DNA of 25,169 bases. Origin: a virus. Positions 15,600-24,928 of this stretch are shown here, in pieces. How positions within the stretch are numbered: position 1 is the stretch's first letter; each line of letters begins with the position of its first letter. Under the pieces are notes generated by a model. It saw nothing but the letters and a program-made list of their open reading frames with translations. It did not search any database and was not told the origin of the DNA. The stretch is taken from the IMG/VR virus record IMGVR_UViG_3300045135_000437, positions 1 through 25,169 of that record; one strand, written 5' to 3'. The position numbers and the translations under genes are program-made.

Positions 15600-17591
15600 A
15601 TGGCAGGATCAGGTTATACACGACAGTCGGTAGCTAGTATCGTACCTACAGCCGTTGTACGTGCTGCCCCGATTAACGCAGAGTTTGATAAGCTACGAGA
15701 TGCTTTCACTCAGAGTGACACAGGTACAACAGGTCACAGACACGATGGTTCTTCTGATGAAGGTTCTTACGTTCCATTTATTGCTGACTTAGATAAGCAG
15801 AATTATCTTACAGTAGATCAGACTAACAATCGTTTTGGTTTGTTTATTGAGGTAAGTGGTTCACCAGTAGAGCAATTACGTTTCCAAGACGGTGTTATTG
15901 TACCTGTTACAGATAACGACATTGACCTTGGCACATCTTCACTAGAATACAAGAATGCATACTTTGATGGTACAGTCTATGCTGATACAGTAAGTATTGG
16001 TGACAATGACTACACTACTATCACAGACAACACATATGCTGTAAGCTCAGGAGACTTAACCTTTGATGTATCTGGTGACATTATCTTTGATGCTGACAAT
16101 GCTGACGTATTCTTGAAGGATGCAGGAACACAGTATGCAGCATTCGTCAACAACACAGGAAACCTAATCCTCAAAAGTGGTAGTACTACTGCTATTACAT
16201 TCACTGGTGCTAATGCAGACTTTGCAGGTACACTAGACGTAACAGGAGCAGGTACGTTTGATAGCACACTGTCTGTAGCAGGGGTAGCCACACTAAGCTC
16301 TAATGCTACTGTAGGTGGCACTCTAGGCGTTACAGGGGCTGCTACACTAAGCAGTACACTAGGTGTAACTGGTGCAGCTACATTCAGTGACAACCTCACT
16401 GTAACAGGGGATGCTACAGTAGGTGGCAACCTTACAGTCAATGGTACACTGACTACACTAAATACTACCAACACTGTTGTCTCTGACACATTGATGGAAC
16501 TAGGTAACGGTACTACAGGTACACCTGTAAATGACTCAGGTATTGTTATTGAACGTGGTAGTGCAGACAATGCATTTATCGGGTTTGATGAGTCTGCTGA
16601 TAAGTTTATCGTAGGTACAGGTTCCTTTACAGGTGCAAGCACAGGTGATCTAACAATTACAAAAGGCACCTTGCAAGCTAACCTAGATTATGATACACTT
16701 TCAGATGGAACTATCACAGTAACAGGCTTTGTAGATGAAGATGATATGGCATCTGACAGTGCTACACTTATTCCTACTCAGCAATCTGTTAAAGCATATG
16801 TAACTACTATTGCAGGACAGTCTAACAATATTGTTGGTCTTACTGCTACAGCAGCCGAACTAAATCAACTAGATGCAAGTGCAGCAAGTCCATCATCTGT
16901 AACACTAGAAGGCACGGACGGATTCTTGTTGATTGATACATCAGCAGGTACACTAAAGCAAGCACTAATCAGTGACTTTAATAACTTTATTACTACTGAC
17001 CTTGTAGGAGATACAACACCACAACTTGGTGGTAACCTAGACCTAAATAGCAGTGATATTACTGGTACTGGTAATATTAACACTACAGGTTCTGCAACAT
17101 TCTCTAGCAGCTTGACTGCACTAGATGCAAGTTTCACAGGTACAGGTGCTGTTGACGTTCCTGCAGGTACTACTGCACAACGTCCAGGTACTCCATCAAA
17201 CGGCATGATCCGTTATAACTCTGATGATGCACAGTTTGAAGGTTATGCAGATGGAGCATGGGGTGCTATCGGTGGTGGTGGAGACACACAAACTGCCTCT
17301 ACATCAAGTACTACTCAAACAGCTATTGCTACTTATACAGCCTCTACATCATTAGGTATTGAGATTACTGTTATTGCTACAGATACCGTAGCTACAGAAC
17401 GTACAATCACTAAACTTCTTGTAACACATGATGGTACAACAGCAGTAGCTACACAGTATGGTGAAGTGAATACAGCTACAGCTATGGCTACGTATGATGT
17501 AGACATTAGTGGTGGCAATGTACGACTGCTTGCTACAGCAGCATCAGCTAACTCAACTAACTTTACAGCATCAGCTACAATTTTAGCTTAA
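15600..17591 (+). CDS. Tail fibre with beta-repeat shaft
   Basis: This encodes 663 residues. The N-terminus ends in F-D-K-L-R-D-A-F and G-H-R-H-D-G-S-S, which looks like a virion-attachment domain. Next comes D-I-D-L-G-T-S-S-L-E-Y-K-N-A-Y-F-D-G (about 112-129). At about 205-295 a run of short repeats of the form T-L-x-V-T-G-x-A-T-L alternates Gly/Thr/Ala/Val in a way typical of a trimeric beta-shaft. After it, D-S-G-I-V-I-E-R-G and F-I-G-F-D-E-S-A-D-K-F are patterns I recall from marine phage fibres, including T4-like cyanophages. The last 100 residues, Thr/Ala-rich after a G-G-G-G hinge, form a likely tip domain. It would bind the host surface. It is more weakly A/T-biased than the three proteins after it. 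Confidence 0.83.
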   Translation: MAGSGYTRQSVASIVPTAVVRAAPINAEFDKLRDAFTQSDTGTTGHRHDGSSDEGSYVPFIADLDKQNYLTVDQTNNRFGLFIEVSGSPVEQLRFQDGVIVPVTDNDIDLGTSSLEYKNAYFDGTVYADTVSIGDNDYTTITDNTYAVSSGDLTFDVSGDIIFDADNADVFLKDAGTQYAAFVNNTGNLILKSGSTTAITFTGANADFAGTLDVTGAGTFDSTLSVAGVATLSSNATVGGTLGVTGAATLSSTLGVTGAATFSDNLTVTGDATVGGNLTVNGTLTTLNTTNTVVSDTLMELGNGTTGTPVNDSGIVIERGSADNAFIGFDESADKFIVGTGSFTGASTGDLTITKGTLQANLDYDTLSDGTITVTGFVDEDDMASDSATLIPTQQSVKAYVTTIAGQSNNIVGLTATAAELNQLDASAASPSSVTLEGTDGFLLIDTSAGTLKQALISDFNNFITTDLVGDTTPQLGGNLDLNSSDITGTGNINTTGSATFSSSLTALDASFTGTGAVDVPAGTTAQRPGTPSNGMIRYNSDDAQFEGYADGAWGAIGGGGDTQTASTSSTTQTAIATYTASTSLGIEITVIATDTVATERTITKLLVTHDGTTAVATQYGEVNTATAMATYDVDISGGNVRLLATAASANSTNFTASATILA

Positions 17592-17601
17592 TACGTAAGC
17601 C

Positions 17602-17622
17602 AAGTGGAAGGTGAAGCATGGC
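17602..17622 (+). repeat. 21-bp leader repeat, copy 1
   Basis: These bases are identical to 21629-21649. The copy includes the Shine-Dalgarno GGAAGG and the ATG plus two following bases of the first propeller fibre. The second propeller fibre lacks it and starts by TAATG overlap. The repeat suggests the first and third genes were copied or exchanged together with their leader. Confidence 0.8.
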
Positions 17623-19600
17623 AAACAATAAAGACTTCAAAGTAAAGAACGGTATTAAACCCACTGCTTATCATGAGGCGGTGGGTACTGTTACGTCTGG
17701 GAGTGAGGGGTATTATCTATCTGGTGCTAGTTACGACAGTGTTAGTTTTAGTGTAGCTAGTCAGGATAGTGACAGTAATTCCTTCTATATAAAGCCAGAT
17801 GGAACAAAGTTTTGGATTGTTGGAAATACTAATAATTCAATATATGAGTATACTATGTCTACAGCTTGGGACTTATCAACAGCATCTTATGCAAGTACCA
17901 GCTTTAGTGTAGGAAGCCAAGACACTTCTCCCTATGGTTTGTCATTTAAGACAGATGGTACAAAGATGTACATGTTAGGTCAAATTAATGATACAGTTTA
18001 TCAATACACTTTAAGTACAGCTTGGGACATATCTACAGCCAGCTATGATAGTATTAGCTTTAGTGTAGCTAGTCAGGAAACAAGCCCAACAAATCTTTTC
18101 TTTAAGACAGATGGTACAAAAATTTACATTGTGGGTTCTATAGGAAATGATGTAAATGAATATAATTTAAGTACTGCATGGGATATAAGTACTGCAAGTT
18201 ACAATCAAACTGCTAGTTTTACATCTGAAGAAGCAACACCGCTTGGTGCTACATTTAATTCTGATGGAACAAAGATGTATATTGTTGGATACACTTCAGA
18301 CACAGTGTTTGAATACGATTTATCAACTGCGTATGATATTTCTACCGCAACATATAATAGTGTTAGTTTTGATGTGTCATCACAAGATGTTGCTCCATAT
18401 GTAGCTTTATGGAAGTCTGATGGAACAAAGATGTACGTTATTGGTGGAGGAAACAACACCATCTACCAATATTCCACATCCCTAACCACCGCCACCTTAG
18501 ACCTATCCACAGGTTCAGTCTTTGAGATTACCCCAACGGCTCCCACTCAGATCAGCCTAAGTAACCCTGCTGCTAGTGGTACTGTGAGTAGTGCTACGTT
18601 GATATTGCATGGAGACATGACTGCTAGTTATGATCTAAACAATATTGTTGGTACAGGCGACGAGATAAACGTAGAAGATCAACTTAGTGCAACTAGTGTT
18701 ACTAACCTAGAAGGTATATTTATAAGCACTGACGGTGACAAAATGTATCTTGCTGATGAACAAGATGATGTTATTCACCAGTATGCTATGAGTAGCCCTT
18801 TTATGCTTAGTACAGCAACATATGAAAAGTCTTTAGATATTTCATCTGAAGGCACATTTCCTACAGCTATTTTCTTTAAGCCTGATGGTACTAAGATGTA
18901 TAATGCTAATGTTGTTGTTGGTGGTTCTACAGATGGTCAGATTTTCCAGTATGATTTATCTACTGCATGGGACATTGGTACAGCTACATACAACAGTAAA
19001 AAACTAGATAGTAGTACACAAGAGACATACCCTTGGGGTTTCTGGTTCAAGACAGACGGCACTTCGTGTTATGTTATGGGGCAGACTACTGATGATGTAT
19101 TCCAATATGATCTTACAACTGCATGGGATTTGTCTACAGCAAGCTATGCAAGTAAGAGTATAGCTGAGACAAGCATGAACCACGGTATTGCATTCAACGG
19201 TGATGGTACTAAGATATTCATAGGTAAATACTTGACAGAGTATGACCTGTCTACAGCATGGGATATTAGCACCGCAACAGCCTCTGGAAATACTGCACAA
19301 GGTAGTTATAGACGTTACGATGGAAGTGCTACTTACACTGTAGCTAATGGCGGTAAGTTTATCTATCGTCCTTACACATACAGATCAGAAAAAGGAAAAG
19401 CTGCACAAGAAGAAGAGCAAATAATCACAAGACTTGTATGGGGTGAACCGTATAGCATTACGTATGATAGCAGTATTAAGTTTCAAGCAGGGTTAGCCCC
19501 TACTTCACCAGAGGTAGGCAAGACAGATGTTATTACTTTTGTGACGACAGACGGTGGTACTACATACACTGCAACTAAAGTTATAGATGGAGCAGTGTAA
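17618..19600 (+). CDS. Propeller-repeat tail fibre protein, copy 1
   Basis: This encodes 660 residues. The short N-terminus (M-A-N-N-K-D-F-K-V-K-N-G-I) matches the opening of many marine phage fibres. Five repeats of about 50 residues follow (about 36-300), each with a core like F-K-T-D-G-T-K-M-Y-M-L-G, then Y-Q-Y-x-L-S-T-A-W-D-I-S-T-A-S-Y, as in beta-propeller blades. A linker (T-L-D-L-S-T-G ... S-L-S-N-P-A-A-S-G) leads to four clear repeats (about 356-555) and a degenerate fifth. The end (I-T-Y-D-S-S-I-K-F ... F-V-T-T-D-G-G-T-T-Y) is a common fibre tip. No enzyme motif was seen. Receptor binding is the likely role. The stop overlaps the next start by one base. Confidence 0.8.
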   Translation: MANNKDFKVKNGIKPTAYHEAVGTVTSGSEGYYLSGASYDSVSFSVASQDSDSNSFYIKPDGTKFWIVGNTNNSIYEYTMSTAWDLSTASYASTSFSVGSQDTSPYGLSFKTDGTKMYMLGQINDTVYQYTLSTAWDISTASYDSISFSVASQETSPTNLFFKTDGTKIYIVGSIGNDVNEYNLSTAWDISTASYNQTASFTSEEATPLGATFNSDGTKMYIVGYTSDTVFEYDLSTAYDISTATYNSVSFDVSSQDVAPYVALWKSDGTKMYVIGGGNNTIYQYSTSLTTATLDLSTGSVFEITPTAPTQISLSNPAASGTVSSATLILHGDMTASYDLNNIVGTGDEINVEDQLSATSVTNLEGIFISTDGDKMYLADEQDDVIHQYAMSSPFMLSTATYEKSLDISSEGTFPTAIFFKPDGTKMYNANVVVGGSTDGQIFQYDLSTAWDIGTATYNSKKLDSSTQETYPWGFWFKTDGTSCYVMGQTTDDVFQYDLTTAWDLSTASYASKSIAETSMNHGIAFNGDGTKIFIGKYLTEYDLSTAWDISTATASGNTAQGSYRRYDGSATYTVANGGKFIYRPYTYRSEKGKAAQEEEQIITRLVWGEPYSITYDSSIKFQAGLAPTSPEVGKTDVITFVTTDGGTTYTATKVIDGAV

Positions 19601-21630
19601 TGGCTAACAATAAAGACTTCATCGTAAACAATGCTGTAGAAATAGGTGGTAGTGTTAAGGTTGGTACAGGAACTATTACGTCTGGAAGTGAAGGGTATTA
19701 CTTACTATCTGGTGCTATTTATGACAGTGTTAGTTTTAGTGTTTCAAGTCAAACAGGTACTATGCAAGGGTTTCGTTTTGGAGACAGTGGAGCTAAAGTC
19801 TACGTTGCCAGTGCATCTGATGCGACAATATATCAATATGATCTGTCAACGGCTTATGATATTTCTACAGCATCATATGCTAGTAAATCTTTCTTAGCAT
19901 CATCGCAATCAACAAATTCATATGCTGTAGATTTTAAATCTGATGGTACTAAGATGTACATTCTTGGGTTAACCAATGACACTGTGTACCAATACAGTCT
20001 AAGTACAGCATGGGATGTGTCTACGGCAAGCTATGATAGTGTTAGCTTTAGTGTAACTTCCCAAGAAGCCACTCCTGCACATGTAGAGTTTAAAACAGAT
20101 GGCACTTCTTTTTATATAGTTGGTGTAGGTAATGATACAGTTTATCAATATGACCTAACAACTGCTTGGGATTTAAGTAGTGCATCTTATGCCTCTAAAA
20201 GTATGGCAACAGGATTAACTAACCCATACCACTTTACGTTTAAGCCTGACGGCACAAAGATTTTTATTTCTGAAGCTGCCGATATTATCACACAGTTTTC
20301 ACTTACAACAGCTTGGGATATTTCAACGGGTAGCACAGATAGTGTTACATTTGACGTATCTTCTCAGGTAACAGGTGATGTTGCTATTCAATTCAATAGT
20401 GATGGAACAAAACTTATAGCAGGTGGTGATGGAGCAGATGCGTTACACCAATACTCCACATCCCTAACCACTAAAACCCTAGACCTATCTACAGGCAATT
20501 ATTTTAGTGTCACCACAGATGAACCTTGTAAGTTTTTATTCAGTAACCCTGCAGAAGGACAGACATTTCACCTAGAAGTAACTACTAACATACCTGATTC
20601 AGATTATTATGGATTAAGTGATTATGCACTTGTTGCTCCTGATGGAGGGCCAGATGGCTTTTCTGTAGGATCATTCAAAACAGGCAATCAAACTACTGCA
20701 GGTTGTTTTGGCCTAACTTTTAAACCTGATGGTTTTAAAATGTATGTGTTAGACAACGGTACGGATACTGTCTATCAATATTCACTAAGTGATCCGTGGG
20801 ATGTAACAGGTGCAATCTATGACAGTAAAAGTTTTAGTACTAATTCTCAAGATGTTACACCTTACGGAATAGCATTTAAACCTGATGGTACTAAAATGTA
20901 CATATTAGGCAGAGGAGGTGGTGATGTATACGAGTATGATTTATCTACTGCATGGGACGTTAGCACTGCTGCTTATAACAGTGTAGTCTTTGCCATAGAT
21001 GGTCAGGCAGCAGCACCCCAGACAGGCTTAGACTTTAGTCCAGACGGAACTAAAATGTACGTCATGGATAACTCTAGTACAAGTAGTGATGTTTATCAGT
21101 ATACATTAAGTACTGCATGGGATTTATCTACAGCTAGTTATGCAAGTAAGACTTTTGCAATCAACGATGGTTTTGTAGGTGACTTCCATATATCACAAAC
21201 TAATGGTAGGTATGCTTTCTACACCAATTATACAGATGATCGTGTAGAAGAGCTAAAACTATCTACTCCTTATGATATTAGTACAGCTACTAAAACAGGA
21301 AATTTATATAATTTATACGGTCCTTTTTATAACACAATGATTTCTGCTAATCTTTTAAACCCTGCAGGATTATATTTCAAACCTGATGGCTCTCGTTTCT
21401 TTGTATGGAATGACTTTACAAATGATTCAGAGACAGAAGACGGTGTCTTTCAGTTTGACGTTCCCGATTATTTTTATAATGCACCTCTTACATGGCCTAG
21501 CAATGTTGAGTGGTCATATGAAGAAGTAGAAGTAACACCTTTGGCTCCTAGTAAAGAAGTGTATACATTTACTACACGAGATACAGGTACAACTTACATA
21601 GGCTCAAAGTCTGTGTATGGACTTAGCTAA
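19600..21630 (+). CDS. Propeller-repeat tail fibre protein, copy 2
   Basis: This encodes 676 residues and is a paralogue of the neighbours. M-A-N-N-K-D-F-I-V-N-N-A opens the protein. Five blade repeats (about 35-290) and five more (about 368-616) follow, for example F-K-P-D-G-T-K-M-Y-I-L-G and Y-E-Y-D-L-S-T-A-W-D-V-S-T-A. Between them lies T-L-D-L-S-T-G-N-Y-F-S-V-T. The tip (L-T-W-P-S-N-V-E-W, then Y-T-F-T-T-R-D-T-G-T-T-Y) closes it. The N-terminal 60 codons are close to copy 1 even at DNA level, and a 25-nt block before the linker (20447-20471) differs from copy 1 (18465-18489) by one base. Blades elsewhere are diverged, so the surface loops probably differ in what they bind. It is translationally coupled to copy 1. 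Confidence 0.8.
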   Translation: MANNKDFIVNNAVEIGGSVKVGTGTITSGSEGYYLLSGAIYDSVSFSVSSQTGTMQGFRFGDSGAKVYVASASDATIYQYDLSTAYDISTASYASKSFLASSQSTNSYAVDFKSDGTKMYILGLTNDTVYQYSLSTAWDVSTASYDSVSFSVTSQEATPAHVEFKTDGTSFYIVGVGNDTVYQYDLTTAWDLSSASYASKSMATGLTNPYHFTFKPDGTKIFISEAADIITQFSLTTAWDISTGSTDSVTFDVSSQVTGDVAIQFNSDGTKLIAGGDGADALHQYSTSLTTKTLDLSTGNYFSVTTDEPCKFLFSNPAEGQTFHLEVTTNIPDSDYYGLSDYALVAPDGGPDGFSVGSFKTGNQTTAGCFGLTFKPDGFKMYVLDNGTDTVYQYSLSDPWDVTGAIYDSKSFSTNSQDVTPYGIAFKPDGTKMYILGRGGGDVYEYDLSTAWDVSTAAYNSVVFAIDGQAAAPQTGLDFSPDGTKMYVMDNSSTSSDVYQYTLSTAWDLSTASYASKTFAINDGFVGDFHISQTNGRYAFYTNYTDDRVEELKLSTPYDISTATKTGNLYNLYGPFYNTMISANLLNPAGLYFKPDGSRFFVWNDFTNDSETEDGVFQFDVPDYFYNAPLTWPSNVEWSYEEVEVTPLAPSKEVYTFTTRDTGTTYIGSKSVYGLS

Positions 21631-21649
21631 GTGGAAGGTGAAGCATGGC
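21629..21649 (+). repeat. 21-bp leader repeat, copy 2
   Basis: These bases are identical to 17602-17622. Here the repeat begins inside the stop of the second propeller fibre and ends just after the ATG of the third, so it carries the ribosome site. The exact match between genes whose coding parts have diverged points to recent copying or selection on the leader. Confidence 0.8.
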
Positions 21650-23651
21650 TAATAACAAATCATTTAAAATAAAAAATGGACTTGATGTAGGGGGCAGCTT
21701 ACAGCAAACAAACGGTACTATTACAACTACAACTTATGGGTATGCTTTTGTTGGTGCTTCATACGATGATATATATTTAGATGTTCAATCAGGAAGTGTT
21801 AGTTCTGTTGGTGCTGCCTTTAAAACGGATGGTACAAAATTATACATTGTTAATAGTTCTGCTGATACTATTATTGAATACCCCTTATCTACAGCTTGGG
21901 ATATTACTACTGCAGGAACATTAGCAACTTTTTCTGTTACAAGTGAAGATACTGATCCTCGTTCCGTGGCTTTTAAATCTGATGGTACTAAAATGTTTGT
22001 TTTAGGAAGCACAGGTAACGATGTTAATCAATACACACTATCTACAGCCTGGGATGTTACCACTGCATCTTATGATAGTGTTACTTTTAGTATAAGTAGT
22101 CAGGCAACTACCCCTGAAGGACTTCGTTTTAAACCTGATGGTACTAAAATGTTTGTTTTAGATAATAACAATGATGGATTACATCAGTACTCTTTATCTA
22201 CAGCATGGGATTTGTCTACTGCTAGTTATGACAGTATATATTATGATTCTGGTTCACAAGATAGTTCTCCTGAAGGATTTGATTTTAATTCTGATGGTAC
22301 TAAATTGTTTATACTTGGCCAGACAAATGATATAATATATCAATACTCTTTAACTACTGCTTATGATGTGTCTACTGTAAGCTATGACAACGTAACACTT
22401 TATGTAGGAGATAAAAATGGAATAGGACAAGACATTGTTTTCGGAGATAGTGGAAATAAAATGTTTTTTCTAGGGGGTAATCAAAACTTTTATCAATACT
22501 CTACTAAAGGTTATCTTGAAACTCTAGATTTATCTACAGGTAATTTTTTTAGTCTTACCCTTTCTGGGCCTACTACTATAGCATTTAGCAACCCTCCTGC
22601 TTCTGGTCTAGCACAGGCAATACAGCTTGAGATTACAGGTAATTTAGCTACAAAATATGACATTTCTGATTTAACATTAGTGTCTGCTGTAGAGAGTGAT
22701 ATTAATAATCAAGGATGGGGATTGCAGAACGGTGGTTTTATTGGGCTACATAATGCTATAGCAACTCCTTCAGATTTATTCTTTAAACCAGATGGCACTA
22801 AACTATATACTCTTGATAAGAACTCAGACGATATTGATCAACATACACTAAGTACTCCTTGGGATTTAAGTACAGTAACAGATGACGATAATCCGCTTAT
22901 TGGTTTTGAAACAGAAGATACCAATATGGAAGGTATGTACATAAAGCCAGACGGTACTAAACTTTTCCTAATTGGTAGAACTAGTGCTGATATTTTTGCC
23001 TATGACCTTTCAACTGCATGGGACGTATCTACTGCTACACATAACAGTGAATCCTTAGATTTAACTGCCACAGAAACATACCCTACTTCAATAACCTTTA
23101 ATCCTGATGGAACAAGATGTTTTATTATTGGTCGCTCCAGTAGCCCACCTCATATCACACAATTTGATTTAACTACTGCGTGGGATATTAGTACAGGTAC
23201 AAATATTGTAAGTACTGACCTTGATGGTATATCCGCTCCTGACGGTATGTTTATCAGTCAAGACGATGGTAAGTATTTAATTGCAGTCTATAACAAAATC
23301 TTTTATAGATATACTTTTGGTACAGCTTGGGATTCAACTACTATTTCTTTTGACAATTATCAAGAATACTTGCAGTATGCTGATGGTTTTGGTACAGGTA
23401 CTGGTAACTTTCAAGGCATATATATCTCCCCAGATCACACGTATATGTATGCTATTCAACCATCAGGTGACATGGTATTCCAATTTTCTTTGAGCAGTTC
23501 TAGTCCAGTATCTTGGCCTAGTAGTATTAAATGGAATAATTTTGAAATTGGTCCCGCACCACAATCTAGTAAAAAAAATGTTTTTAGCATATTTACTATA
23601 GATGGTGGTACAAACTATTATGGCAAGTTAGTAGGGGAAAAAGTAGAATGA
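21645..23651 (+). CDS. Propeller-repeat tail fibre protein, copy 3
   Basis: This encodes 668 residues and is the most diverged of the three paralogues. The start M-A-N-N-K-S-F-K-I-K-N-G-L-D-V-G-G-S is close to the general marine fibre N-terminus. Five blades run to about residue 290 (for example F-K-P-D-G-T-K-M-F-V-L-D), then T-L-D-L-S-T-G-N-F-F-S-L-T, L-E-I-T-G-N, five further blades (about 374-613) and a tip with V-S-W-P-S-S-I-K-W and F-T-I-D-G-G-T-N-Y-Y-G. The tip is nearer to the usual fibre form than in the other copies. The ribosome site lies in a 21-bp repeat shared with copy 1. The last four bases overlap the next gene (ATGA). Host-surface recognition is inferred. Confidence 0.8.
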   Translation: MANNKSFKIKNGLDVGGSLQQTNGTITTTTYGYAFVGASYDDIYLDVQSGSVSSVGAAFKTDGTKLYIVNSSADTIIEYPLSTAWDITTAGTLATFSVTSEDTDPRSVAFKSDGTKMFVLGSTGNDVNQYTLSTAWDVTTASYDSVTFSISSQATTPEGLRFKPDGTKMFVLDNNNDGLHQYSLSTAWDLSTASYDSIYYDSGSQDSSPEGFDFNSDGTKLFILGQTNDIIYQYSLTTAYDVSTVSYDNVTLYVGDKNGIGQDIVFGDSGNKMFFLGGNQNFYQYSTKGYLETLDLSTGNFFSLTLSGPTTIAFSNPPASGLAQAIQLEITGNLATKYDISDLTLVSAVESDINNQGWGLQNGGFIGLHNAIATPSDLFFKPDGTKLYTLDKNSDDIDQHTLSTPWDLSTVTDDDNPLIGFETEDTNMEGMYIKPDGTKLFLIGRTSADIFAYDLSTAWDVSTATHNSESLDLTATETYPTSITFNPDGTRCFIIGRSSSPPHITQFDLTTAWDISTGTNIVSTDLDGISAPDGMFISQDDGKYLIAVYNKIFYRYTFGTAWDSTTISFDNYQEYLQYADGFGTGTGNFQGIYISPDHTYMYAIQPSGDMVFQFSLSSSSPVSWPSSIKWNNFEIGPAPQSSKKNVFSIFTIDGGTNYYGKLVGEKVE

Positions 23652-24391
23652 GTGTTTTTAACAGTATAATGTTAAACTCTGCAAACCTATCTGGTAAAAA
23701 ACCTTTGTTTATAGGGCAGAATGTTGGTACTGTTGCAAACGGTAATGCTATATCTTTAGACCTTACGGAAGGTTCAAGTAAGCCCATTGATGTACAGGAA
23801 GGCGATTTGATTGTTGCATTACATGCTGCAGGTAGTTCAGGGGATATATTACCAGATATGCATATGGATACGGCTGCTTCTGCTTATATGAATACTATTG
23901 TTTCATCACGAGATAATGATACATATGATCCAAATATGAAAATATATGTAGGCAGAGCAACTACAAACGTTTCTACCTTTGCTGTAGATAGTATAGGTAA
24001 CACTTCAGTAGCTGTAACACTTGCCGTTATGGTATTTAGAAATGTAACATCTGTAAATCAGATAAAACTTGACGAGTCTGCTAGTTCAGACGATCCTAAC
24101 TTTCATATGGGTACTAATTTAAAAAGAGGTGACATTGTAGTTGGTGGGGCTGTTGTTGCTCATATATTAGGTAGTGCTGTTGCAGATAACTTTGAACAAC
24201 ATGGAACTACAATAGAAACAGCTTACTTTGATAAGTTTATAACAGATTCATCAAGTGATACATATGATTGTACTTTTGGGCTAGGTTATAAAATTATAAC
24301 AGACGAAAGAGCTTTTAAGCCAGTACATTTAGATTCAGACCTAAGCGGTTCATCTTCTGCTTTTGTAAGCTCAACTTTAGTACTAAGATAA
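23648..24391 (+). CDS. Beta-rich tail-associated protein
   Basis: This encodes 247 residues coupled to the third propeller fibre by an ATGA overlap. After a short start the sequence shows alternating hydrophobic strands, with V-Q-E-G-D-L-I-V-A-L-H-A-A-G near 55-70, V-A-V-T-L-A-V-M-V-F-R near 120-130 and R-G-D-I-V-V-G-G-A-V-V-A near 160-170. The pattern E-G-D-L-I-V followed by G-F/V-F-R type strands recurs, from memory, in small jelly-roll-like proteins of marine phage tails. No catalytic motif or membrane segment was seen. It could be a fibre tip, collar or accessory adhesin. Its place between fibres and the tail chaperone supports a tail role only in general terms. Confidence 0.6.
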   Translation: MSVFNSIMLNSANLSGKKPLFIGQNVGTVANGNAISLDLTEGSSKPIDVQEGDLIVALHAAGSSGDILPDMHMDTAASAYMNTIVSSRDNDTYDPNMKIYVGRATTNVSTFAVDSIGNTSVAVTLAVMVFRNVTSVNQIKLDESASSDDPNFHMGTNLKRGDIVVGGAVVAHILGSAVADNFEQHGTTIETAYFDKFITDSSSDTYDCTFGLGYKIITDERAFKPVHLDSDLSGSSSAFVSSTLVLR

Positions 24392-24415: not shown

Positions 24416-24928
24416 ATGTATGTAAACACGGCAACAGGCCAATATCCCTACACAGTAGGACACTTTCGTAGAGATCACAGTAATACTAGTTTTCCTAAGA
24501 ACATTAGTGAAACACTATTAGCACGTTATGGCATTAAGAAGGTTGTCTACGCAGATAAACCTAGTTATAATGTAGCAACACAAAAGTTAGTAGAAGCCTC
24601 TAAACCTGTAAGAGAGACTGACGGTGTATATACAGCAGAGAATGCTCCTAATGAATCTATGATCGGAGATACTATCTACACAGGACGTTGGATTATCAAC
24701 TATACTGTGACTGATATGACTGCAGAGGAAATTACAGCAAATGATACTGAGGCTGCACGACTAGCACGTATAGTACGTAATCGTCTATTAGCTGAAACAG
24801 ATTACTATGCACTGTCAGACGTTACTATGTCAGCAGAAATGACTATCTATCGTCAGGCTTTACGTGACATTACTGCGCATGAAAATTGGCCTCACTTGGC
24901 TGATAATGACTGGCCCACTAAACCATAA
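24416..24928 (+). CDS. Tail (fibre) assembly chaperone
   Basis: This encodes 170 residues. The C-terminal 53 residues (118-170) show R-N-R-L-L-A-E-T-D-Y-Y-A-L-S-D, then Y-R-Q-A-L-R-D-I-T and a W-P-T-K-P ending, which is the pattern of the phage tail assembly chaperone family (I recall it as Phage_tail_APC, PF16778). The N-terminal part has F-P-K-N-I-S-E-T-L-L-A-R-Y-G-I-K and an Asp/Thr-rich middle with Y-T-G-R-W-I-I-N-Y-T-V, likely to bind fibre proteins. Such proteins help fibres fold and are usually found, as here, downstream of fibre genes. AGAAAGGA precedes the ATG. Which of the four fibres it serves cannot be read from the sequence. Confidence 0.82.
   Translation: MYVNTATGQYPYTVGHFRRDHSNTSFPKNISETLLARYGIKKVVYADKPSYNVATQKLVEASKPVRETDGVYTAENAPNESMIGDTIYTGRWIINYTVTDMTAEEITANDTEAARLARIVRNRLLAETDYYALSDVTMSAEMTIYRQALRDITAHENWPHLADNDWPTKP

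Follow-up and report, generated by a model that had tools for sequence, protein, structure and literature searches.

A probable tail-fibre tip of three two-socket scaffolds with exchangeable five-bladed propellers in an HMO-2011-type podovirus

Introduction

Phages change host range by swapping whole fibre tips. In the branched tailspikes of the Ackermannviridae (CBA120, S117), tandem receptor-binding genes combine conserved assembly domains with exchangeable variable receptor domains (PMC11414711, PMC8825819), and in the Staphylococcus phage phi11 the five-bladed beta-propeller of Gp45 has been proposed as a receptor-binding platform (PMC4901313). Here we describe three adjacent genes, A, B and C, at positions 17618-23651 of the IMG/VR virus record IMGVR_UViG_3300045135_000437; the whole stretch of 25,169 nucleotides that was analysed is called the window below. 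We consider it probable that these genes encode a multi-part tail-fibre tip composed of three fixed scaffolds with two sockets each, in which putative receptor-binding propellers would be exchangeable.

The locus resembles the Ackermannviridae tailspikes in having tandem, distinct proteins in a fixed order (three position-specific scaffolds, found in 25 contigs), with a presumed role in receptor binding. However, whole spikes determine specificity in the Ackermannviridae, through their variable C-terminal portion, whereas in the window small domains are inserted inside conserved scaffolds, each of which has two sockets that may be empty. Like phi11 Gp45, the window proteins are of the tail-fibre type and carry what appear to be five-bladed propellers, but Gp45 is the product of a single gene with one propeller per chain, belongs to another sequence family, and has neither sockets nor a scaffold trio. 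No relation to Gp45 was detected, as gene A had no match in a sequence search of the PDB and Gp45 was not among the top 50 Foldseek matches. The shuffling of domains among tail-fibre and receptor-binding proteins of distant phages is a general phenomenon (PMC10684548), although the parts of that account drawn on here do not mention propellers and contain no layout of fixed scaffolds with multiple sockets. Multi-spike complexes, fibre domain shuffling and propeller receptor-binding proteins are all known, but for a conserved trio of two-socket scaffolds we found no description. An earlier note on this DNA, made from the sequence alone, had held that no such system was described; this needs narrowing, as tandem multi-spike complexes (PMC11414711) and the propeller protein Gp45 (PMC4901313) are on record, and it stands in that neither has fixed scaffolds with internal sockets.

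Architecture of the three scaffold genes

The open reading frames (ORFs) of the three adjacent paralogues were confirmed at the lengths first given (660, 676 and 668 residues), and their products are mutually 41-49% identical, with E values as low as 5e-121. Their parts are as follows, blades having been located with a hidden Markov model (HMM) and with AlphaFold2 models.

17618..19600, + strand: gene A, scaffold 1, 660 residues, both sockets filled (ORF call; in the scaffold-1 clade with support 100/99)
17726..18493, + strand: gene A, five-blade propeller of socket 1, residues ~37-292 (blade HMM starts 37, 89, 141, 193, 244)
18650..19432, + strand: gene A, propeller of socket 2 within the tip, residues ~345-605 (blade HMM starts 349, 402, 456, 508)
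19600..21630, + strand: gene B, scaffold 2, 676 residues, both sockets filled (ORF call; AlphaFold2 model)
19705..20472, + strand: gene B, propeller of socket 1, residues ~36-291 (AlphaFold2: five four-stranded blades, strands 40-286)
20476..20589, + strand: gene B, first part of the split tip, residues 293-330 (tip HMM; AlphaFold2 strands 288-329)
20662..21465, + strand: gene B, propeller of socket 2 inserted into the tip domain, residues ~355-622 (AlphaFold2 strands 357-620; blade HMM)
21481..21627, + strand: gene B, second part of the split tip, residues 628-676 (tip HMM; AlphaFold2 strands 636-675; phrog_9017 match at 630-671)
21645..23651, + strand: gene C, scaffold 3, 668 residues, both sockets filled (ORF call, blade HMM; tip matches phrog_7760 and phrog_9017)
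21756..22517, + strand: gene C, propeller of socket 1, residues ~38-291 (blade HMM starts 38, 94, 141, 193, 246)
22707..23489, + strand: gene C, propeller of socket 2, residues ~355-615 (blade HMM starts 361, 414, 464, 531, 583)

The blade HMM, which was built from genes A-C, found 9, 10 and 10 blades in A, B and C, respectively. The roughly ten blades per protein noticed at first reading are therefore present, but as two blocks of five and not as one run. In socket 2 of gene A the last blade is degenerate, and a fifth was assigned from the length of the insert. The six sockets of the window hold six different propellers. Among 165 blade runs in relatives, the commonest sizes were 5 (127), 10 (18) and 4 (11). 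The AlphaFold2 model of gene B (predicted local distance difference test score, pLDDT, 82.5) places blades at residues 40-286 and 357-620. In the model of gene 1 of the relative L015 (relatives are referred to by such locus numbers), in which only socket 1 is filled (pLDDT 90.3), 20 blade strands fall into five groups of four and are followed by an unbroken tip. The propeller-like character of the blades is thus borne out by five four-stranded blades per set, and 20 strands per block arranged as five fours at high pLDDT would fit, by strand counts and not by coordinates, a five-bladed ring.

Each protein consists of an anchor of ~28 residues, a tail-fibre tip of ~91 residues and two insertion sites. 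The tip is split, its first strands (LDLSTGxxF...FSNP) lying at residues ~293-331 and its remainder (W...DGGTTY) at the C-terminus; the second propeller separates the two parts. Socket 1 is located between anchor and tip, and socket 2 in a hairpin of the tip, which in the L015 gene 1 model connects strands 328-335 and 343-345. Relatives possess genes of anchor and tip in which the tip is contiguous, which shows that the split tip is one domain and the gene a two-socket scaffold. Such natural empty scaffolds are whole genes of 117-120 residues with anchor and contiguous tip only (e.g., L015:10408-10770, L017:6935-7297, L041:2438-2797, and genes 2 and 3 of both L073 and L142). Judged from the sequences, each socket holds zero or one five-bladed propeller, or sometimes a DUF7483 domain.

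A fibre role for the tip is supported by matches to the tail-fibre families phrog_7760 and phrog_9017 at the C-termini of genes B and C, with similar matches in annotated fibre proteins of isolates, and with a PF16778 tail-fibre assembly chaperone adjacent in the tail module, downstream of the three genes. The fibre context and the fibre tip proposed in the earlier note are upheld by these matches, except that the tip is not one terminal piece but is split around the second propeller. As to the Gp10-like XD domains that link the spikes in the Ackermannviridae, the only Pfam match of Gp10-like name remained below threshold (12 bits against a cut-off of 27) and was to a coat-protein model, no XD-specific model having been tried.

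A second scaffold family, with another anchor (MSxxIDYSSG...) and the same tip, occurs in tandem, empty or with propellers, in L022, L092, L098, L101 and L130, which suggests that sockets of this kind originated, or were disseminated, on more than one occasion.

Fixed scaffolds and changing contents

Relatives were tabulated from three IMG/VR scans, which gave 95 tip genes lying in chains; a later scan extended the count of trios. Both sockets were empty in 25 of the 95 genes, socket 1 alone carried a propeller in 21, both sockets did so in 21 and socket 2 alone in 20, while the remaining 8 contained another domain, which, where searched, was Pfam DUF7483. The adjacency seen in the window recurs, three consecutive scaffolds being present in 25 IMG/VR contigs; among these, the window is the only one with every one of its six sockets occupied by a propeller.

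On a scaffold-only tree of 60 rows (20 per position), the position label changes twice, which is the minimum, and the nearest relative of a scaffold in another contig occupies the same position in 60 of 60 cases (19.3 expected). Genes B and C lie on long branches of this tree, which makes their precise position less certain. On the same tree, socket occupancy requires a minimum of 21 changes. For the propellers, the label formed by carrier and socket changes 36 times against a shuffled mean of 35.9. Nearest-neighbour agreement of that label is 17/59 against 10.8 expected (p about 0.04) with near copies kept, and 15/57 against 10.5 expected without them.

In pairwise comparisons, scaffolds that are 85-99% identical carry propellers that are mostly 39-61% identical. 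The scaffold 3 genes of L015 and L020 form a near-isogenic pair, empty versus filled, which differs by one propeller of ~786 bp with flanks identical at 229/234 and 125/126 bases. Conversely, one propeller is virtually the same in L020 and L081, whose scaffolds have 92% identity. The trees and comparisons indicate that the three scaffolds are old, distinct paralogues in a fixed order within which the inserted propeller varies, and that socket contents do not follow the scaffold, the propellers being mixed as if at random.

Three adjacent paralogues of similar length and the same architecture could also result from the recent tandem duplication of one fibre gene in the window phage, with no wider system behind it, and tandem multiplication of whole proteins had indeed been suggested. 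However, the scaffold types recur at the same position across the 25 contigs, gene A belongs to the clade of scaffold 1, and the tree requires no more than two changes of position. A recent duplication is contradicted by this position-sorted tree and was rejected; we regard it as very improbable. Hardly more credible is the idea that the apparent swapping reflects chimeric metagenome assembly, although the blades are repetitive and the relatives come mostly from metagenome contigs. The propellers, at about 40-55% identity, are too unlike to provide long exact repeats, near-identical layouts from different samples share their load (L070/L071/L072, L234/L235, L237/L238), insertions occur at the same scaffold positions, and empty scaffolds recur.

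Two scaffold trios, L286:8987-13898 and L047:10001-14282, have DUF7483 domains instead of, or besides, propellers, and their contigs resemble those of contractile-tailed phages. In the long contig L286, DUF7483 occupies four sockets and no propeller is present. DUF7483 domains may thus form another class of plug-in adhesins beside the propellers; literature searches for DUF7483 and for propellers in marine phage fibres yielded no account of either. A scan of genome contigs gave three loci, one of which (L151) places a scaffold-1 gene in an archaeal metagenome-assembled genome, on a contig of 7 kb that is probably phage contamination.

The cassette and its neighbours

The window represents 25 kb of the genome of a marine podovirus of the HMO-2011 type, recorded as a fragment in IMG/VR. 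Its major capsid protein (MCP) shares 93% identity with the protein of Roseobacter phage CRP-345 and 81% with that of SAR116 phage HMO-2011, and its capsid, portal, terminase and tail genes are homologous to those of this phage type, with their order kept, in agreement with the short-tailed phage first supposed. It encodes a terminase, a portal protein, a P22-like capsid, tail tube proteins and a 663-residue tail fibre, after which genes A-C, a 247-residue gene and a tail-fibre assembly chaperone follow, the unit running to 24928.

15600..17591, + strand: upstream trunk tail-fibre gene, 663 residues (HMO-2011-type N-terminus; aligns over most of its length with the L142 equivalent, 65%)
17325..17588, + strand: last 88 residues of the trunk gene (576-663), proposed docking (hub) domain, conserved upstream of scaffold 1
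23648..24391, + strand: fourth carrier gene, 247 residues (4-base overlap with gene C)
24416..24928, + strand: tail-fibre assembly chaperone, Phage_tail_APC (PF16778, E 1e-10, above cut-off; PHROG tail fiber assembly)

The counterpart of the trunk gene in the CRP phages is annotated as a putative tail fiber protein. Gene A starts 26 bp past the trunk gene with its conserved 88-residue C-terminus, and a hub-like domain ends the gene preceding scaffold 1 in 27 of the 27 cassettes that show both scaffold 1 and the upstream gene (two other listed cassettes begin at scaffold 2). This domain is fused to very different N-terminal trunks. Among cultured phages it is nearly absent, the two partial matches being from copies of a single cyanophage, and so it does not represent a fibre ending of general occurrence.

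The junctions are conserved as well. Scaffolds 1 and 2 overlap by one base (TAATG at the gene A stop and gene B start), scaffolds 2 and 3 are ~14-15 bases apart, and scaffold 3 and the fourth gene overlap by four bases or one base in most contigs. In relatives the fourth gene has a short conserved N-terminus followed by a propeller, DUF7483 or other domains, with five blades in L017, L046, L081 and L149; the fourth gene of the window was unmatched in Pfam and NCBIfam, and in PHROG matched weakly only a function-unknown family. Where contigs extend far enough, many of them have a tail-fibre chaperone downstream.

Besides HMO-2011-type podoviruses (L019, L023, L074, L137, L142, L145, L245), the cassette was found in the podovirus-like L067 (internal virion protein), in L149 (lambda J-like tail protein) and in L020 (tape measure protein). 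In L047 and L286 the neighbouring genes resemble baseplate wedge and long-tail-fibre families, which makes these contigs probably T4-like. The placement of the last-named contigs is based on few genes. We propose only tentatively, as a possibility somewhat short of probable, that the unit is a self-contained mobile host-recognition cassette (docking domain, three scaffolds with six sockets, fourth carrier and chaperone) that moved among podoviruses, siphovirus-like and probably T4-like phages, acting as a combinatorial adhesin rack whose sockets are loaded, emptied and reloaded with whole propellers. Genes A-C were unmatched in the region of CRP-345 that was searched, and a scan by MCP gave 80 loci of the HMO-2011 type, none of them with the cassette in the stretch examined, though many were too short to show it.

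Proposed function and mechanism

The most likely function of genes A-C is receptor binding by a multi-fibre device whose specificity would be altered through propeller swapping. The anchors would dock on the conserved 88-residue end of the trunk fibre, with the chaperone aiding the assembly of the cassette proteins, and the loaded propellers would face the cell and bind surface receptors, probably glycans, via a variable face. Exchange of whole propellers by recombination might then change or widen specificity, and the fibre would not have to be rebuilt. Such exchange would be eased because the propeller ends look alike in both sockets.

The blade model offers a candidate for the binding face. 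Its most variable positions are 14-18 and 34-38, and the motifs DG-K-Y and LSTAWD-ST are nearly fixed. By the usual propeller convention, the loops between strands d and a and between strands b and c make up the top face. On the pattern of YVTN-type blades, and not from coordinates, we assign positions 14-18 and 34-38 to top-face loops and the two fixed motifs to the bottom face. A ligand-binding top face would fit, since the top-face loops are variable and the bottom-face loops nearly fixed. By analogy, the five-bladed platform of phi11 Gp45 would be a precedent for propellers as receptor binders.

Many phage fibres and spikes are depolymerases. The propellers could accordingly be lactonase- or glycanase-like enzymes cutting a surface polymer and the rack a set of depolymerases, and genes B and C indeed match Pfam Lactonase (PF10282) with 47.3 and 37.4 bits against a cut-off of 21.7, as well as Pfam SGL above cut-off; the Lactonase match was not reported for gene A. 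However, the lactonase family is seven-bladed while the blocks here have five blades, NCBIfam 6-phosphogluconolactonase scored 28.8 against a cut-off of 370, no NCBIfam family reaching its cut-off, and the top conserved positions recur in every blade, as structural motifs do, with no single conserved catalytic set seen. We consider this alternative quite unlikely.

The three related proteins look like one device, as in one of the readings offered by the earlier note, and they could be obligate subunits of one hetero-trimeric fibre with a single receptor-binding head instead of separate adhesins. One protein of each position-specific scaffold type, overlapping genes and their constant co-occurrence speak for such a trimer, but branched fibres of separate homotrimers, as in the Ackermannviridae, fit the same facts, and we rate the hetero-trimer as possible though rather doubtful.

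Several points weigh against the socketed, exchangeable fibre tip proposed here. Closure of the propeller ring is derived from strand counts and five-blade blocks and not from inspected coordinates. In Foldseek searches of the PDB the matches were propellers of a general kind at low TM-scores, and the top 50 included no five-bladed receptor-binding protein; results for the two-propeller model were swamped by tandem WD40 proteins, and the single-propeller model likewise matched general propellers, of the WD40 and NHL types. Resolution of the propeller tree is poor (2/56 branches starred), which weakens the mixing test, and because of this weakness a faint sorting signal could still be present. 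The IMG/VR loci were found via peptide patterns, so that their counts are not a census. Finally, the three-scaffold cassette was not found in any cultured phage searched.

If the proposed tip is correct, what is exchanged appears to be a single small, closed domain in a fixed socket of a conserved scaffold, with three co-inherited subunits and up to six sockets. The layout of sockets and propellers would constitute a readable code that could be set against the host ranges of abundant marine phages. It would also represent a natural scaffold that tolerates insertions of ~260 residues at two places, and it offers a testable function for propellers and DUF7483 domains whose present annotation is hypothetical or lactonase.

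Related propeller proteins in cultured phages

The same propeller family is present in cultured phages in other arrangements. In Lentibacter phage ICBM2 (Cobavirus), gp51 (403 residues) contains a five-blade propeller, 44% identical, and is encoded between tail assembly chaperone genes; it differs from the window proteins in showing no scaffold trio or split tip, and is annotated as a hypothetical protein. Roseobacter phages CRP-13 (gp43), CRP-9 (gp42) and CRP-2 (gp51), which are of the same phage type as the window, encode proteins of this family downstream of the tail-fibre gene.

L002:6420-10061 (CRP-13): hypothetical protein of ~1220 residues, ending in AAQNLKIRVV
L003:6420-10145 (CRP-9): the same
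L005:7551-11219 (CRP-2): the same

Each has 15 blades in three blocks of five, but as a single long protein and not as three scaffolds, and with other N- and C-termini. In published accounts of RCA phages that encode related proteins, the propellers go unmentioned. These three phages make the propeller family accessible in culture.

Long proteins with 15-17 blades in which no scaffold was recognised also occur in L016 (10094-12583), L048 (4374-10855), L096 and L097. In HMO-2011 itself (L061, 25010-31699), more than 10 small genes annotated as tail-fibre or tail-related occupy the place of the window's cassette, and these are perhaps another multi-part adhesin set.

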